From an uncultured Oscillospiraceae bacterium (GTDB taxonomy: Bacteria > Bacillota > Clostridia > Oscillospirales > Oscillospiraceae): a stretch of DNA of 53,573 bases. The DNA lies in the NCBI GenBank assembly GCA_947589545.1, contig CANQBA010000021.1:1-53573 (forward strand). Reading direction: 5' to 3'. Positions 19,932-34,176 of the stretch are shown one piece after another (within the stretch, counting starts at the first letter, position 1; each line of letters begins with the position of its first letter). The position numbers were made by a program, and so were the translations under genes. The notes beneath the pieces were generated by a model that saw only the letters and a program-made list of their open reading frames with translations, did not search any database and had not been told where the DNA came from.

Positions 19932-20708
19932 TCAGCGTACCTCTACGGTAAGCTCAACTCGTTTATAGGTGGATCCCCCGGAGCGGCCCGTACCGCCGGG
20001 GAATTTCACGTCAGTGATAACATAGTGCTGACCGGGGGCCAATACGATCTCACCCAGAGCGCCGCCAGGGCCGTTTCCGGGCATGAGTGCCTGAGTTTTG
20101 GCCGGGGCCTTGTAGATGATTTTAACGGCCTTGTCCGTAAATGCGTTTCCGGGAGGGGCGGTCTTAAAATCATTGTAAGACGTACTCACAAAAGCCTTAT
20201 CGACAAAGCCCTTTCCCACGAGCACCTTTTGCAGCTGCGCGATGGACATATTCTCGTAATTCCCCGCGCCCAGACCCTGCATAAAGTCAACACGCGCATA
20301 GCGGTAGAGGTTTACGTTGTAGCCCAGATTGTGCATCCCCGCCTTCATGGAGTCCACCATAAACTGCTGATTGGCCGTCAGCGTCTGCCCGTTCCGCATG
20401 GCATAGTTGAGAATTTGGGAGGGCGCATACAAACTGCCGGAGACGGCCTGATCGTGCAGGTAATCCTGGAGCGCCATCCGGGTATCAATATCAAAAGTTT
20501 GACTCTGATAGTACTGCCTGCCGGCGTAGAGGTCATGGTGGGGGGCGTTATCGGTATCAGCAAACGTCTGCGCATTTGCGCTTTGCGCCGCCGCTACGGT
20601 CGCCGCCATCTGAGTATCCGGGAGAGGTTGAGCCGCCGTCACCGCGGCCGCCGTTGCGGTCGCCGGCGCATAAGACGTCTTCGACAAGCCGCTTCTCGTT
20701 TTTGCCAT
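19932..20708 (-). CDS. ADP-ribosyltransferase exoenzyme-like protein
   Basis: 258 residues from ATG 20708 after AAAGGTGTGATAAA; the frame could start 16 codons earlier but without a site. N-terminus MAKTRSGLSKT, S, YAPATA is shared with 18941-19726. The C-terminal domain has NVNLYRYARVDF (the motif-I Arg), VDKAFVSTSYND (the S-T-S motif) and GGALGEIVLAPGQHYVITD (the Glu strand), which match ADP-ribosyltransferase exoenzymes (VIP2/C3 group). The residue two before that Glu is not Gln or Glu (it is Leu), so the target may not be a typical Arg. It follows DUF4417 by 4 bp. Confidence 0.75.
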   Translation of the reverse strand: MAKTRSGLSKTSYAPATATAAAVTAAQPLPDTQMAATVAAAQSANAQTFADTDNAPHHDLYAGRQYYQSQTFDIDTRMALQDYLHDQAVSGSLYAPSQILNYAMRNGQTLTANQQFMVDSMKAGMHNLGYNVNLYRYARVDFMQGLGAGNYENMSIAQLQKVLVGKGFVDKAFVSTSYNDFKTAPPGNAFTDKAVKIIYKAPAKTQALMPGNGPGGALGEIVLAPGQHYVITDVKFPGGTGRSGGSTYKRVELTVEVR

Positions 20709-20712
20709 TTTA

Positions 20713-21510
20713 TCACACCTTTCCCTTGCCGTCAATCGTGCGCCATTTGTCCACAAAAGACGGAATTTGCTGTATAATACCCCGGTCGCGTTCGCACTCC
20801 GGGAAAATAATGCCCTTCCAGAGTATCTTTGTAGGATGGAGCCGGTCTATCATTTGCTCGTAGCCGTCCAAAAACCAGCGCTTGGATTCCTTCGTCCTTG
20901 CCATTCCCAGGGAGGACAGCGCCACCACACCGCCCTCCGGCTCTCCGTCAAAGCACCACTCCAGCGTGGATTTGTCAGACCACGTTATTGTGGGTATGAC
21001 CGTAATACCCTGGAGCTGCCAATAGGCCCCCAGCCAGTGCTTGCGATAGTGGTTATATAGCTGGATTGCCTTGGGAAAATCCGCATATGGAGAGAAGTCC
21101 GGGGTACACACCGCTTGAAATTTCTGTAAGAGCGGCACATACACATTGGGGTTCGTCCACACGCGGTTGAATTGATAATCATCCACAAAAAAGTGGACAC
21201 CGTGGATCTCCGGATCCATACATCCCCGCGCATAGTTCCACCCGATCCAGTTTTCAACGTCGCACTCGTAGACGGGGTTCAGCCGCGGGATGCCGTACTC
21301 GCCCACACCGTCAAACAGGGCGTTTTGCAGGTTCTCGTAGTTGCGTTGCTGCCTGTACATTTCCGCCTCCATATACGGCGAGACGCCCAGCCGGGGGAAG
21401 TCATACCGGCAAGGCGTCTCCTGTAGGGCCTTTGGGCGGGGCCTTGCTTGCCGCGGCGACTGTGTTGGCGGAGGAGTAAACCCGGCGACGTGTCGAAAGT
21501 GCGGCGGCAT
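20713..21510 (-). CDS. DUF4417 family phage protein
   Basis: 265 residues. The core has GIPRLNPVYECD, VHFFVDDYQFNRVWTNP, CTPDFSPYADFPKA, YNHYRKHWLGAYWQ, ITVIPTITWSD and FDGEPEGGVVALSSLG. These are the conserved blocks of DUF4417, frequent in clostridial phages near the late switch. Its biochemical role is not known. It is the first gene after the candidate late promoter at 21567-21606 and is followed by the ADP-ribosyltransferase-like gene. The N-terminus of about 50 residues is Pro/Arg-rich and the start is uncertain (ATG at 21510; M residues at about 47 and 51 are alternatives). Confidence 0.82.
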   Translation of the reverse strand: MPPHFRHVAGFTPPPTQSPRQARPRPKALQETPCRYDFPRLGVSPYMEAEMYRQQRNYENLQNALFDGVGEYGIPRLNPVYECDVENWIGWNYARGCMDPEIHGVHFFVDDYQFNRVWTNPNVYVPLLQKFQAVCTPDFSPYADFPKAIQLYNHYRKHWLGAYWQLQGITVIPTITWSDKSTLEWCFDGEPEGGVVALSSLGMARTKESKRWFLDGYEQMIDRLHPTKILWKGIIFPECERDRGIIQQIPSFVDKWRTIDGKGKV

Positions 21511-28082: not shown

Positions 28083-28349
28083 TCAGGTTTCCCCCCCCCA
28101 ATCAGATAGCTTGCTTTCCGATTTTGCCGGGGACAAAAGCCAGTTGATCACGTCATCCGGGGTCCGCCATAGGGCGTGACGGATACCAAACAGCGCAAAG
28201 CCCATGTCCCGCTCATCCATGTTGCTAAGCACCTCCGCGTTGTCCGGCTCAAGCCACGGCGCGTTTTCGGCTCGGGCGTGTCTGCACGCCGGACCTAAAT
28301 GGTCCAACCAGCATTTTACTGCAAGTGGGCATCTGTCACAGAGTTTCAT
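28083..28349 (-). CDS. Small Cys-rich phage protein (88 residues)
   Basis: Start MKLCDRCPLAVKCWLDHLG at 28349, eight bases after GGAGG. The N-terminal C..C....C and CRHARAENAPW look like a zinc-binding knuckle. The rest is helical. The end codes WGGET from a run of nine G (28091-28099), so the frame of the last residues depends on the run length. Unknown function. Confidence 0.6.
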   Translation of the reverse strand: MKLCDRCPLAVKCWLDHLGPACRHARAENAPWLEPDNAEVLSNMDERDMGFALFGIRHALWRTPDDVINWLLSPAKSESKLSDWGGET

Positions 28350-28993
28350 TTTTTCAACCTCCAACGTTCGATCCACCGATCCAGCTTTTCCTGCTTGACC
28401 TTTTCAGCCTCCAGTACTATGTTCGGCCAGCCGGCTTCAAGGACGTCAATACAGAGCTTAACGTCTGCAATCTCCTCCGCCAGGTGGTTCCACGCTTGCT
28501 CAAATGTGACCGGCGTAGGATTTTCGCCCCGTTCTATCCGCGACAGCTTCAAAGCGGCCTGCGCCAATTCCGCCGCCTCCTCCGCCGTCTGTTCCATGAG
28601 GGCCGGCAGACTAAGCCGCCCCGCGAGGCTCAATAGCTTCTCCTCATTCGTCAGCATGGCATGGCTGCGGGGACTGACTTTCACCGCCCGGTCGTCCCAA
28701 TATTCGGTCGCGCCGATCTTTCGGGGGTCGTTGCCCCAGGCGGCTTTCCATTCCGGGAGGCTTTCGTTGATGGCGTCAAAGTGGAGCCCCCATCTTTCGG
28801 CGGCGTTGACCGCCTCCTCAAGCAGCTTGCCCTCGCGGCAGGTCCAAAGGATAAGACCGGCGCCAGCCGTCTGACGTTGCCGGGCGGCCACGATGACATC
28901 CCAATTTGGGGCGCCGATATCGGGGTAGGCGTTTGCGCAGAGGCACCCGTCAAAATCAATGGCAATAGCCTCGCGCTTTCGTTTATCGTTCAT
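28346..28993 (-). CDS. HAD-type hydrolase fused to MazG-like pyrophosphohydrolase
   Basis: 215 residues from ATG 28993. Residues 1-120 are HAD-like: AIAIDFDGCLC (DxD nucleophile), LILWTCREGKLLEEAV, and IGATEYWDDRAVKV (acidic motif). Residues 130-210 are MazG-like: LMEQTAEEAAELAQAALKL (E..EE..E) and HLAEEIADVKLCIDVL (EE..D). The HAD half resembles phage 5-prime nucleotidase or polynucleotide 3-prime-phosphatase types; MazG proteins hydrolyse NTPs. The two together would clean a nucleotide pool. In phages these are mostly separate genes; one chain is less common. Confidence 0.8.
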   Translation of the reverse strand: MNDKRKREAIAIDFDGCLCANAYPDIGAPNWDVIVAARQRQTAGAGLILWTCREGKLLEEAVNAAERWGLHFDAINESLPEWKAAWGNDPRKIGATEYWDDRAVKVSPRSHAMLTNEEKLLSLAGRLSLPALMEQTAEEAAELAQAALKLSRIERGENPTPVTFEQAWNHLAEEIADVKLCIDVLEAGWPNIVLEAEKVKQEKLDRWIERWRLKK

Positions 28994-29339
28994 ATCTTCC
29001 TCCGTCTTCCGGATCCGGCACCGTGACGTAAACCACAATGGCCGTCTTCCAGGGCAGGGATCTGTAAAACTCCAGCCGTGCCTCGTCGCTCATATCGTCC
29101 GGGTCCCCGCCGGCAAAGGTGTCGTAAAGGCAATCATCCATATCCTCCTCATCGTAGAAGTGTACAGCTTCCTCACCCATAACGTATCGGTCCACCCCGG
29201 AGCCGCCCAAAGCGCCTCTCCAGTAGCGGAAATCGTCCAGTACCAGGTTTCCGTCCACCATGAACATAACCGGCAAATCCGGGTATTGCCGTAAGAGTTC
29301 AAAAAGTGTCTCCCTGTTTTTCCTTTCCGTTTCAGTCAT
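28983..29339 (-). CDS. Phage protein of 118 residues, unknown
   Basis: Start MTETERKNRETLFELLRQYP, ribosome binding site AAGGAGGCAAGCT. Acidic with an Asp/Glu-rich middle (YDEEDMDDCLYDTFAGGDP). Overlaps the HAD-MazG gene by 11 bp. No family recognised. Confidence 0.6.
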   Translation of the reverse strand: MTETERKNRETLFELLRQYPDLPVMFMVDGNLVLDDFRYWRGALGGSGVDRYVMGEEAVHFYDEEDMDDCLYDTFAGGDPDDMSDEARLEFYRSLPWKTAIVVYVTVPDPEDGGRYER

Positions 29340-29350
29340 AGCTTGCCTCC

Positions 29351-30751
29351 TTAAATCTTCCAGTCATCCTCCCGGACCTGAAAAGCGTTTCCGAGCTGCA
29401 CCGTGTCCGGGAAATTATGCTGTGTGGTTTTGATTGCGTGTTTGTCAATTTCGGTCGCGTAGTAGCGGGTAACGGTGACGCCCAGCTTGTTGAGGGCCAG
29501 CCGTCCGCAGCTCATCCCGTCGTACATGGACAGGACCTCCACGGGCTCCGCCGTGACGCTGATTTCGGGGATATGCGCCAGGATGTGAGCGATCACGTCC
29601 ACCGTCCAGCCGTTTCCCAGCATCCTGTAAGCCTGGGTATCGCTGACCGGGAATTCGTAGCTTTCGGGAACCGTCTGAAGCCTCTTACATTCCGTGACAG
29701 TCAATTTGCGGATTATGTAAAATCCGTCCAGGAGCTTGATGGGGTATTGCGCCCCGCCGATGGTGATCTGACCGCCCCGGACTTCATAAACGGGTTTGTC
29801 CACGGTTCCGCAATATTCGTAATACTCGTTAGACGTGGTAAGGTAATTCGATTTTTCCCGCATTGCCCGCCCTCTCCTGGTTTTGCTTCCCGGCCGTGTC
29901 AGATCCACACACTCTCCCGCGGCAATCTCCGTATACCCCTTCGTTGTCGCTTCCCGAACAACAAGCGGCTGCAGGATGGAGTAGAGCGGGCCGTCCGCGC
30001 CGCCGCCGTTTGGCCGAGCCGTGAGTGCTACACCCTTGCCGTTGATGTCGTACACCCGATGGGCCTGCCCGCCGCGGACTTCCCCGGCCGCATTTGGCGT
30101 ATCGCCTACCCGTACCGGGGCGGCATAGAGTCCGGTTTTGGCCCCCACGCCGCCGCCTTGGCCGCAAAGGGTCACGCTCTTGCCGTCCGGGGAATAGACC
30201 CGGTATTGTTGACTGTCAAGCCCCGCGTCCTGGGCCTCGCTTTTGATAGTCCCGATTCTGACGGGTTCCGCCACGCCGTTTGCGGAGAAATGCCCGTTTG
30301 TCGCAATTGCCTTCAGGATGTTTGACGGCCCGTTTTGGTGACACATCGATGCTTTCAGGGTATACGCCTTTTCCCTCCAGCAAGCCCCGGTCTCCAGGAT
30401 ATCCCGCAAGAGGATGCCCCGGTCTTCCGGCTGCTCCACGGATACTTGACTGTAGGATTCGTCCGGTTCCCGGCGGCCCACCCAATAGAGCCGTTGCCGA
30501 CTCTGGGCGGACACGAGCGCCGAATTGATAAGGATCGGTTTCACCCCCAAAAGTCGGGTGATTTGCTCCCGGATCGCAGCGGACATGGATTTGTTGTTTT
30601 CGTACAGAAAATAGTCCGGCTGATATTTGTCGCGGGAAATGACATAATTTAGGAACAGCTCCCACCCTACCCCGGATGCCTCCGTCTCCCGGTTTTTGGT
30701 CTGCGCTATGCTCCAATAGGTACACGGGCTTCCGCCCATAAGCAGCCTCAT
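29351..30751 (-). CDS. Cytosine-5 DNA methyltransferase, circularly permuted
   Basis: 466 residues. The protein begins with motif IV (MRLLMGGSPCTYWSIAQ, PC catalytic Cys), then ENNKSMSAAI (motif VI), VSAQSRQRLYWVG (VIII), a long repetitive target-recognition region (two units of RVY..(D/N)GK.V.L), and LGNGWTVDV (motif X region). Then, after that normal end, motifs I-III appear: VEVLSMYDGMSCGRLALNK and RYYATEIDKHAIKTTQHNF, stopping at LGNAFQVREDDWKI. In relatives this part is N-terminal and leads into motif IV. So the gene has its ends moved: a permuted methyltransferase. The start has a G-rich ribosome binding site. A run of nine C lies in the leader. Confidence 0.88.
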   Translation of the reverse strand: MRLLMGGSPCTYWSIAQTKNRETEASGVGWELFLNYVISRDKYQPDYFLYENNKSMSAAIREQITRLLGVKPILINSALVSAQSRQRLYWVGRREPDESYSQVSVEQPEDRGILLRDILETGACWREKAYTLKASMCHQNGPSNILKAIATNGHFSANGVAEPVRIGTIKSEAQDAGLDSQQYRVYSPDGKSVTLCGQGGGVGAKTGLYAAPVRVGDTPNAAGEVRGGQAHRVYDINGKGVALTARPNGGGADGPLYSILQPLVVREATTKGYTEIAAGECVDLTRPGSKTRRGRAMREKSNYLTTSNEYYEYCGTVDKPVYEVRGGQITIGGAQYPIKLLDGFYIIRKLTVTECKRLQTVPESYEFPVSDTQAYRMLGNGWTVDVIAHILAHIPEISVTAEPVEVLSMYDGMSCGRLALNKLGVTVTRYYATEIDKHAIKTTQHNFPDTVQLGNAFQVREDDWKI

Positions 30752-30813
30752 AGGCCCTCCCCTCCGCCCGCCACCGCAGGGTGACAGCGGGGGGGGGCGT
30801 ACTATTTAATTAT

Positions 30814-31373: not shown

Positions 31374-32170
31374 CTATTCCTCCCTGGGCGGCAGATAGAA
31401 AAGCCGCTCCATAACGACGAATTGATTGTTTTTATTCCTGTCCAGCGTCCGGGTAAAAGGTTTTTCCCAAACGCAGGTAATATCCGGTGGGGCCTCTTGC
31501 TCGCTGACGTAGACCCGGTGCCCCGTGTCCGCCAGAAGCCTCATAGCGGCCCAGAATTCGCCGGTGTCAAACTTTTCGCCGCCGTACCCCGTGGTATTGT
31601 TGTACGGCGGATCCGCGTAGATGACCGCCCCTGGCGGGATGGGCACGGCTCGATAATCCCCGCAGATAAATTCCGCGTCCATCAGCGTTTCCATATCACG
31701 GAGCAGTGACCGGCGGCTCTGCGCGGCATAATTCGTACCCTCGGCGTTCCTGGCGTATCCGCCAAACCACTTGCCGCCAAAGCTGCACCCAAAGCCCACA
31801 AACCCGGCAAGCACGGGATTTTCGGCCCGATGCTCACGGAGGTATTGATATTGCTCCGGGCTGACCGTCTCCGGCGGCGTCCACCCACACTGAAGTCCGT
31901 GGTACATGGCGATGAGGTACTGGTGCTTATCGTTCAGGATCTTCCGGGCAAAGCCCCGGACCCGACTCTCCACGGCGCAGGAGCCGCAGAAAAGGCTGAC
32001 AAAGCAGGAGTCCCCCCCCCGTCCGTCCGGAGCCAAAAGGGGAGCTATCGCGCCGGCTATCCTCGACTTCCCGCCCTGATATTGCGTGGCGCTCCCCCCC
32101 CCCTCAGTGTCGTATTGATGATTTCCGCGATCGCCGTGGCGATCCGGCTTTTTCCACCCACATACCGCAT
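31374..32170 (-). CDS. Dam-type DNA adenine methyltransferase, interrupted by G10 run (phase-variable or frameshifted)
   Basis: Translation should start at ATG 32170, two bases after the polymerase stop, with AAAGGA upstream: MRYVGGKSRIATAIAEIIN. This frame meets ten G at 32094-32103 and stops at 32057 after 37 codons. The rest of the enzyme is in the -1 frame: QYQGGKSRIAGAIAPLL, FVSLFCGSCAVES, VIYADPPYNNTTGY (the DPPY motif), KPFTRTLDRNKNNQFVV. Eleven or eight G would join both; so would a -1 slip on G. A second run of nine G (32012-32020) is in frame. As printed the gene is off unless a frameshift happens. Confidence 0.8.
32094..32103 (-). repeat. G10 homopolymer in the Dam-type gene
   Basis: Ten C on the plus strand (G on the coding strand), 66 bases into the gene, exactly where the reading frame breaks. 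Simple repeats of this length slip during replication, which makes on/off switching likely if the tract is real and not a sequencing artefact. Confidence 0.85.
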
Positions 32171-32172
32171 TT

Positions 32173-34176
32173 TTAGTCCTTTTTAAAATATTGTCCGACC
32201 CAGCCCTCGGCGTTGAGCGGCAGGCCCGGCGCCCAGGGAATTGGCTGGCGCATGAGGCTACACACCTGCTGGAGCATGGTCTTCTCGTCGGCCCAGGGGC
32301 GAGCGTCAATAACGACCTCGTCGTGGACGTGGAAAACGATGGGCAGCCCCGCCGCCTCCAGATTGTCGATGGCGTAGGCAAGACAGTCGCGGGCGATGGC
32401 CTGAACCACATTCTCGGTCAGCTTCCCGCCGTATGTCTCGATGCGGCGCCATTTCTTTGTCCCTTGCTCCTGGCCGGCGTAGCTGATGGACGGCTCGCCC
32501 CAGCGGTTTTGCCCGATCTTCGGGGATATGTAATAGAGCTTCCGCCCGGAGGGCAGCTGGATGGTCATGCAGTCGATGCCCTGCCCCGGGTCATACTCGC
32601 GGGCAAAGGTAAGGCACTCGACCCGCGCCCGCCCGCCGTTTTCAATGACCTGGAGCGCCGCCGCCTCCATCGCGTACCACAGCTCCCGGATGCCGCTGTT
32701 GGCCTGGCGCCACCGCGTCACAATGTCCTGCACCTCATCATCCGACAGCTCGTCGAGCTGGTGTCCGGTGTCCATCCGCCGCATAGCACCCACACCGCCC
32801 TGATAGCCCAGGGCCAACTCGGCCACCTTGCCCCGCTGCCGGAGGGCATACTCGGGATTGCCCTTGACGATCTTTTCGATGGGCACGCCAAACATCTGCG
32901 ACGCCGACGCCTCATAGATTTTCCCGTGCGTCCGAAAAACCTCCAGCTTCCACTCCTCCTGCGCCAGCCACGCGATGACCCGGGCCTCGATGGCCGAAAA
33001 GTCCGCGTCGATCAGCACGTTGCCCGGAGCGGCCACAAACGCCGTCCGGATAAGCTGTGACAGGGTATCGGATACGGAGCCATATACAAGCCGCAGGGCC
33101 GCCCTCTGGCGTGTCTTGACCAGATCCCGGGCCACGGGCAGCGCCTCCAGATACGTCCGGGGGAGATTCTGCACCTGCACCAAAGCCCCGGCCCACCGGC
33201 CCGTCCGATTGGCCTTGTAGTATTGCAAAAGCCCCCGCACCCGCCCGTCCGCGCAGACGCACGTCTCAAGGGCGTTGTACTTTTTTGTACTCGTCTTCCC
33301 CAGCTCCTGCCGTATCTCCAGGATGCGCCGAACCTCCGGAGAATTGCTCTCCCGCCCCAAAAGGCTGCTGACGTTATCCTTGGATAGGCTCGTGATCTCT
33401 TCCTCGTCGTCCGCGGACGCAGAATTGAGCCAGCGGATGAGCTGCTTGATGCTGTTTGGATTATCCAGCCCGCTTATCCGGCGGGCCTCCTCCAGAAGCT
33501 CCGTGTTCTCCTCCGCGCCGACAGCCAGGGCGCCCTGAACGAGATCCGTGTCCACGGCTACACCGCGGGCGTTGATGAGGAGATCCGTTTCCCACTGCCG
33601 CTGGATCCAGTCGGGGACGGGGAAAGCGGACAGCCGCCGCTCCACTTCCATCTCCGTGACAACATCCTGCCGGTTGTACTCCTTAAAGAGCTGCCATTTT
33701 TCCGGATCGTGCTGGGGGTAGTTCCGTGTCCGCCCGCCGTTTGCTTTTGTGGGGGCGCAGGGGACGCAGAAATAGCGGATAAGCGCTTTGCCGACGGAAT
33801 CCTTGCGTTTATCCTCCGGCAGCCCCAGTGCCGGCCCGATGCTCTCCAGGCTTGCCGGATAGCCGCAATAGAGGCCGTGCATACGGGTACACCGCCATTG
33901 ACCCGGCGGGAGCGCCCCAAAGTACTTTGAGAGACAGCCCCACTCAAACGAGGCGTTGTAGGCGTGCTTTATATATTCTGGACTTATGAGGGCCTGGTGT
34001 ATCCACGACGGCAGCACCTCGCCGCAAGCGATGTCGATGACCTCCACGGGGCCGCCGTCCAGGGAGTAGGCAAAAAGCAGGATGGCAAAATCGTCGCTCG
34101 CGATATATTTTTGCGCACCGGCAAGCTTGATGGGCACGCTGCTGTATGTCTCAAGGTCAATACTCAGATGGTGCAT
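32173..34176 (-). CDS. Family A DNA polymerase
   Basis: 667 residues from ATG 34176 after AAGGTGAGAGT. N-terminal 3-prime to 5-prime exonuclease: SIDLETYS (DxE) and EYNRQDVVTEMEVE. Polymerase motif A DADFSAIEARVIAWLA, motif B RGKVAELALGYQGG, motif C FHVHDEVVID. It replicates the phage genome with the clamp-like protein, the DUF2815 protein and VapE. It ends two bases before the Dam gene start. Confidence 0.95.
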   Translation of the reverse strand: MHHLSIDLETYSSVPIKLAGAQKYIASDDFAILLFAYSLDGGPVEVIDIACGEVLPSWIHQALISPEYIKHAYNASFEWGCLSKYFGALPPGQWRCTRMHGLYCGYPASLESIGPALGLPEDKRKDSVGKALIRYFCVPCAPTKANGGRTRNYPQHDPEKWQLFKEYNRQDVVTEMEVERRLSAFPVPDWIQRQWETDLLINARGVAVDTDLVQGALAVGAEENTELLEEARRISGLDNPNSIKQLIRWLNSASADDEEEITSLSKDNVSSLLGRESNSPEVRRILEIRQELGKTSTKKYNALETCVCADGRVRGLLQYYKANRTGRWAGALVQVQNLPRTYLEALPVARDLVKTRQRAALRLVYGSVSDTLSQLIRTAFVAAPGNVLIDADFSAIEARVIAWLAQEEWKLEVFRTHGKIYEASASQMFGVPIEKIVKGNPEYALRQRGKVAELALGYQGGVGAMRRMDTGHQLDELSDDEVQDIVTRWRQANSGIRELWYAMEAAALQVIENGGRARVECLTFAREYDPGQGIDCMTIQLPSGRKLYYISPKIGQNRWGEPSISYAGQEQGTKKWRRIETYGGKLTENVVQAIARDCLAYAIDNLEAAGLPIVFHVHDEVVIDARPWADEKTMLQQVCSLMRQPIPWAPGLPLNAEGWVGQYFKKD

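Follow-up and report, generated by a model that had tools for sequence, protein, structure and literature searches.

A gene on the reverse strand of a 53,573-nucleotide stretch of DNA from an uncultured Oscillospiraceae bacterium (assembly GCA_947589545.1, contig CANQBA010000021.1; the whole stretch is called the window here) encodes a cytosine-5 (C5) DNA methyltransferase that begins with motif IV and ends after motif III, instead of running from I to X in the canonical order. Is this one enzyme with displaced ends, how did the rotated order arise, and what does the protein do for the prophage that carries it? The best explanation, which we hold to be very probable, is a predicted functional C5 methyltransferase circularly permuted between motifs III and IV, which arose once and serves as an orphan, likely multispecific enzyme protecting phage DNA from restriction.

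Gene, motif order and predicted fold

Translation of the single-frame open reading frame (ORF) 29351-30751 (-) gives a protein of 466 aa in which the blocks IV-VIII, recognition region, IX, X, I, II and III follow each other, each present once. The N-terminus MRLLMGGSPCTYWSIAQ is motif IV, followed by ENN (motif VI, not ENV), QSRQR (VIII) and a variable region of about 200 aa; then come RKLTVTECKRLQ (IX), LGNGWTVDV (X), VLSMYDGMSCG (I), YYATEID (II) and NFPDTVQLGNAF (III region). This numbering rests on resemblance to the C5 methyltransferase family, whose motifs (catalytic PC, QxRxR, GN and the S-adenosylmethionine (SAM)-binding motifs) are present and conserved in an alignment of 41 sequences. 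Pfam family PF00145 matches the protein with E 1.5e-28, split over two stretches. The features of the gene are as follows.

29351..30751, minus strand: circularly permuted cytosine-5 DNA methyltransferase gene, 466 aa (ORF, translation, Pfam, six-frame profiles)
30755..30765, minus strand: purine-rich ribosome-binding site, GGAGGGGAGGG in sense, upstream of the ATG (read from the sequence)
30722..30736, minus strand: motif IV GGSPC, residues 6-10, with catalytic cysteine C10 (translation, alignment)
30593..30601, minus strand: motif VI ENN (E51) (invariant in the alignment)
30491..30505, minus strand: motif VIII QSRQR (alignment)
29792..30391, minus strand: variable target-recognition region, residues 121-320 (alignment)
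30116..30265, minus strand: recognition cassette b, residues 163-212 (profile, E 8.8e-26)
29984..30118, minus strand: recognition cassette c, residues 212-256 (profile, E 3.5e-17)
29795..29968, minus strand: recognition cassette e, residues 262-319 (profile, E 2e-36)
29675..29710, minus strand: motif IX RKLTVTECKRLQ (translation, alignment)
29594..29620, minus strand: motif X LGNGWTVDV (translation, alignment)
29504..29536, minus strand: motif I VLSMYDGMSCG (SAM-binding loop), following motif X (translation, alignment, profile)
29444..29464, minus strand: motif II YYATEID (translation, alignment)
29381..29416, minus strand: motif III region NFPDTVQLGNAF, 9 residues ahead of the C-terminus (translation, alignment)

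An earlier note on this DNA had described a protein that starts at motif IV, passes LGNGWTVDV and then carries motifs I-III, with its ends meeting between III and IV and one copy of each motif. Translation and a profile search over all six frames of the window bear out this description: the parts IV-VIII, IX-X and I-III occur in one copy apiece, all inside ORF 29351-30751. Since every part is found once and in the same ORF, there is no second set of motifs I-III and no separate gene for the C-terminal part in the six frames of the window, two of the findings that the note had named as fatal to its reading. The start codon is backed by a closely preceding GGAGG-type ribosome site, by an in-frame TAA 57 bases upstream of the ATG with no in-frame ATG, GTG or TTG in between, and by the relatives: among 105 rotated proteins with GGSPC, 67 have their last in-frame Met 5 or 6 residues ahead of this motif. 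A run of nine C (sense strand) is located at window positions 30789-30797, some 40 bases ahead of the start codon, where slippage could affect expression.

The lengths of the parts fit a rotation, as the linker and the distance from motif I to the end match the canonical spacing. The stretch from X to I measures 22-24 aa in all 99 rotated enzymes measured (of 108); in canonical enzymes the median is 14 residues for the tail after X (131/135) and 3 residues for the distance from the last Met to motif I (112/135). From motif I to the protein end the rotated enzymes have a median of 65.5 residues (100/108), and canonical enzymes have 65 from motif I to IV (117/135); 20 of the 100 measured rotated proteins run more than 75 residues beyond the start of motif I. 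The structure prediction proposed in the earlier note agrees: the AlphaFold models can be overlaid on M.HhaI and, by way of their C-terminal end, on plant DRM, where the ranges of these predicted models give the first and last aligned residue only, and the modelled chain forms a single Rossmann-type catalytic core. The chain would thus open with the strand bearing the catalytic cysteine and close after the SAM-binding motifs I-III, with the old termini joined by the 22-24-residue X-to-I stretch and the whole folding into one ordinary methyltransferase core.

Relatives and origin of the rotated order

The window enzyme is a member of a large clade of rotated enzymes and not a solitary case. A scan of viral contigs with the window's own peptides yielded 49 loci: 34 with a single rotated ORF, one interrupted by a stop, eight with two ORFs in the same order and six cut by contig ends. 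The canonical order was found at none of these 49 viral loci, so the earlier statement that relatives run from I to X does not hold for the closest ones. Three further viral scans took the best 80 of 143, the best 80 of at least 590 and the best 80 of at least 589 confirmed stretches, and a genome scan added 59 loci, mostly Clostridia by title. The total set comprises 316 loci, including the window's own, its host and five phage records, with some contigs present more than once. The first 157 loci contain 118 with one rotated ORF and seven with one canonical ORF, the remainder being split, cut or multiple. Of the 159 further loci, taken on the plus strand only, 149 have one canonical ORF and two have a rotated one (L161 and L162, the same contigs as L150 and L030). 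After removal of identical proteins, 108 rotated (window included) and 135 canonical single-ORF proteins were compared, 243 altogether, which answers the note's call for homologues of the same order.

Among 150 genomes of the host's family, four including the window's own carry the rotated gene by full-length match, and 45 give some match at E 0.001, mostly partial; one of these others, when read, was canonical. In a sample of the phylum only one genome of 398, again the window's own, passes E 1e-60. Matches by tblastn were obtained in 271 phage records, eight of which were read: phage nd4 and MT836645 are rotated in one ORF each, MT835543 has the rotated order spread over two ORFs, and Vibrio 1.133.O, Proteus Saba, uvMED S42-C7, Flavobacterium FPSV-S27 and MT835730 are canonical. 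Joined tblastn rows were rejected as a sign of rotated order, because these last five records stood behind such rows. A plasmid collection gave 29 matching records, all below 60% identity.

That the assembly joined two gene pieces is a negligible prospect: nothing was found for it beyond the default doubt about a single contig, and it is refuted by the independent copies, the identical order recurring in 108 distinct proteins from many contigs and in the four genomes of the same family.

Some rotated loci have peculiarities of their own. L155:2858-5497 (+) encodes a rotated methyltransferase with an intein directly at the motif IV catalytic cysteine (GGSP / C...HN / CTKWS), matched by Pfam Intein_splicing (1.9e-9) and Hint_2 (4.3e-8) and also by an intein C-terminal region family. 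L094:5266-8037 (+) holds a tandem pair of rotated genes with differing recognition regions. Between the recognition and IX-X parts, L031, L035, L039 and L040 have G tracts of 8, 10, 10 and 10 versus 9 in L025, which set the two halves in different frames by possible phase variation or sequencing error; G/C tracts of at least 8 occur in only 8 of the 108 rotated ORF regions, at 0.053 versus 0.027 per kb elsewhere.

Motif IV reads PCT in 105 of the 108 rotated proteins and is not readable in the other three, whereas canonical proteins have PCQ (123/135) or PCT (12/135). In unrooted FastTree trees of the 243 proteins the rotated proteins are monophyletic with support 0.999 (whole), 0.83 (IV-X) and 0.979 (I-III). 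Nine canonical PCT enzymes group with them at 1.0 (whole) and 0.996 (IV-X) and ten at 0.9 (whole) and 0.871 (IV-X); in the I-III tree the rotated clade is joined by ten canonical PCT enzymes and one PCQ enzyme at 0.955. Ultrafast bootstrap (UFBoot) values for the subset of 41 sequences are 96 (IV-X) and 97 (I-III) for the rotated clade, 100 (IV-X) and 75 (I-III) for its grouping with 9 of 11 PCT-pattern canonical enzymes, and 99 (IV-X) for that with 7 of 11. On these trees a single origin of the rotated clade is well supported. The canonical PCT-type phage enzymes (e.g. L140, L141, L143, L149) share the motif IV signature and recognition cassettes with the rotated ones but run from I to X and start at motif I; they are clearly the neighbours of the IV-X half, while it is less certain where the I-III half came from.

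The rotated order arose once, most likely when a canonical-order PCT-type phage enzyme was duplicated in tandem, the copies were fused and both outer ends were lost; permutation by duplication is the route we propose. Tandem canonical methyltransferase genes exist in five related loci, so that the raw material for such a permutation is at hand. The phage loci L301, L304, L311 and L316 each have three canonical C5 methyltransferase genes on one strand. At L140:6685-7986 (+) a protein with an HNH endonuclease match (PF13392) has in its later part a methyltransferase-like half without the motif IV PC; it lies near an intact canonical-order enzyme and is perhaps an inactive partner.

Several observations tell against this account of the origin. 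Identity of the I-III half to PCT-pattern canonical enzymes is no higher than to others (mean 0.488 vs 0.491), and the nearest canonical I-III half is of PCT type for 20 of the 108 rotated proteins and of another type for 88. An in-frame duplicated, fused intermediate was not seen among the loci read. At nine of the 157 loci different ORFs encode the IV-VIII and the IX-III part (at L110 on opposite strands), and some of these loci may be broken. The lack of a plain-identity preference leaves room for a mosaic origin, in which the IV-X half came from one methyltransferase and the I-III half from a different neighbouring one by head-to-tail fusion rather than rotation of a single enzyme. We regard this as rather unlikely. 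The tandem arrays of C5 methyltransferases in related phages would suit it, but the I-III trees place the rotated clade with the PCT-pattern enzymes (9 of 11 in the UFBoot tree, ten and the one PCQ enzyme in the FastTree tree); the I-III half has 60 alignment columns only, and the outcome is one rotated enzyme under either origin. The claim of a clean rotation and not a fusion of two enzymes is backed only in part: the IV-X half clearly has canonical PCT-type neighbours, but for the I-III half the agreement of the trees is only moderate and identity is neutral, and two adjacent related copies may have been fused.

Recognition cassettes and function

The recognition region, as far as profile comparison of the sequences goes, is an array of cassettes. 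A library of 15 seed segments, all from rotated enzymes and biased accordingly, covers on average 0.60 of the region in rotated, 0.40 in canonical PCT and 0.29 in canonical PCQ proteins. It resolves 105 rotated proteins into 60 distinct cassette strings, one of them empty (four proteins), with at most five cassettes per protein; the window protein reads b-c-e by profiles, with an a-like fourth segment ahead of them seen by eye. The copies of cassette b in rotated L157 and canonical L159 share 84% identity, against 52% for the catalytic parts of these two proteins. Such a strong excess is uncommon: there are 3,952 same-cassette pairs whose catalytic identity is below 0.6, and in 64 of them the cassette identity is more than 0.15 above the catalytic one. 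The region has a median length of 187 in rotated (n=105) versus 118 in PCQ canonical proteins (n=123; Mann-Whitney p 2e-17), a difference not used as proof because the test ignores shared ancestry.

Residues E51, R87, N380 and E434 are invariant in the 41 aligned sequences, and C10 is present in at least 90%, some rows starting after it. The median dN/dS (ratio of nonsynonymous to synonymous substitution rates) is 0.10 on the catalytic parts of 260 pairs with dS 0.02-1.2, which argues for function. Both results speak against the view that the methyltransferase is decaying or inactive and survives in the prophage by chance, a very improbable reading in favour of which one may count the split rotated loci and the fact that nd4, the only named phage among those read to show the rotated order, has the product 'hypothetical protein'.

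The gene lies in a prophage with tail, head, portal and terminase genes, followed by helicases, primase, DNA polymerase A, annealing protein and exonuclease. The phage early operon suggested before is retained, to judge from the annotated neighbours, as a location in the prophage replication cluster. Upstream of the C5 gene on the same strand, with two small ORFs between, is

31374..32411, minus strand: D12-class adenine methyltransferase (PF02086, E 9e-15; phrog_56)

The protein downstream, at window 28346-29038 (-), has a weak HAD-phosphatase match (NF046079, 74 bits versus a cut-off of 165), and window 19935-20756 (-) a weak match to the ADP-ribosyltransferase phage family phrog_3895 (E 0.00036).

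Neighbouring genes at related loci were scanned for 107 of the 207 listed immediate neighbours, with results for 25 of 48 Pfam and 25 of 98 PADLOC families. Among the Pfam families listed are N6/N4 methyltransferases (5), PAPS-reductase domains (5) and D12 (2). PADLOC models of type II methyltransferases match up to five neighbours, and those of SspD, mads_2 and BrxP four each. Orphan methyltransferases can regulate genes. The PADLOC matches and such a regulatory role would suit an enzyme that forms the modification half of a restriction-modification system or serves as a host epigenetic regulator rather than against restriction; we consider this quite unlikely, as no endonuclease-named family is among the 25 of 98 PADLOC families listed and the setting is a phage replication cluster.

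Three points detract from the anti-restriction, multispecific reading: PF04851 ('type III restriction enzyme, res subunit') matches three of the 107 neighbours, and Helicase_C and DEAD three each, all of which we read as phage helicases; the recognition region is poorly predicted, with pLDDT (predicted local distance difference test) below 50 over much of residues 122-318; and it is by inference that each cassette counts as a recognition domain of its own. The preferred reading from these sequences is that of a predicted active, probably multispecific orphan anti-restriction methyltransferase. Cytosines in several short target sites would most likely be methylated, with the sites set by the exchangeable cassette array, and the methylation would protect phage DNA from host restriction.

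The new C-terminus carries further domains in some relatives: a D12 adenine methyltransferase in L072 (3.3e-21) and in L057 an XF1762 (Mom-like) domain (1.2e-65), whose match to the Pfam Mom family falls exactly on the cut-off. Mom-type enzymes modify adenine in phage DNA (PMC7824862). At L037:1-1563 (+) the fusion partner of a rotated methyltransferase end is a region in which an SYGKDS-like PP-loop motif was made out by eye and which has no Pfam match at 0.01 and only weak NCBIfam matches.

Known permuted enzymes and meaning

Circular permutation of C5 enzymes is already known, whereas a natural clade cut between III and IV is new as far as our searches reach: no natural III/IV permutant was recognised in the literature searched, whose coverage leaves out most subscription papers. 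In plant DRM motifs I-IV stand near the C-terminus, after VI-X. The canonical profile matches DRM (4onj, 4onq, 7l4f) with positions 1-106 on residues 231-349 of a 357-residue chain; as I-IV are contiguous near its C-terminus, its cut lies after IV, whereas the catalytic cysteine of the window enzyme is residue 10. A link by descent to DRM is no more than possible, since an X-I order in common is enough to raise such scores. The multispecific enzymes of the Bacillus phages SPR, phi3T, rho11 and H2 differ in their canonical motif order. They likewise have several recognition domains in tandem in one enzyme (PMC8936443), a role in which we would also see the cassettes of the window enzyme.

A 2018 survey of 20,677 REBASE entries lists 27 natural permutants, all cut in the variable region (PMC5944983). 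Its type H (M.BssHII, M.Alw26I, M2.Eco31I, M.Esp3I and M2.BsaI) shares circular permutation with the window enzyme but starts in the variable region and has IX-X ahead of I-VIII, whereas the window enzyme starts at motif IV and ends after III; M.BssHII, cited earlier as precedent, is thus a permuted C5 enzyme but a loose parallel (PMC5944983). Laboratory permutants of M.HaeIII (types B or C) start in motif III itself, or between it and either motif II or motif IV, and are reported active, III/IV starts included (PMC5944983); they include the break of the window enzyme but are products of directed evolution and not natural.

The same study reported that many cut points are tolerated in engineered C5 methyltransferases, with near-native activity for one type, and discussed why natural permutants seemed confined to variable-region cuts (PMC5944983). 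The existence of a clade with the III/IV cut in nature suggests that this limit was one of sampling. Rotated and canonical enzymes sharing cassettes are ready material for measuring the effect of rotation, and the cassette arrays and fusions let phage counter-restriction be seen as module shuffling. Tentatively, and with less confidence than doubt, we suggest that the III/IV rotation is a separate natural C5 topology, evolved once and mainly in phages of gut Clostridia, which may serve as a modular anti-restriction platform with swapped middle cassettes and a new C-terminus (SAM-binding lobe) docking other DNA-modifying enzymes such as the adenine methyltransferase and the Mom-like XF1762. If this is true, one rotated protein would make several kinds of DNA mark.
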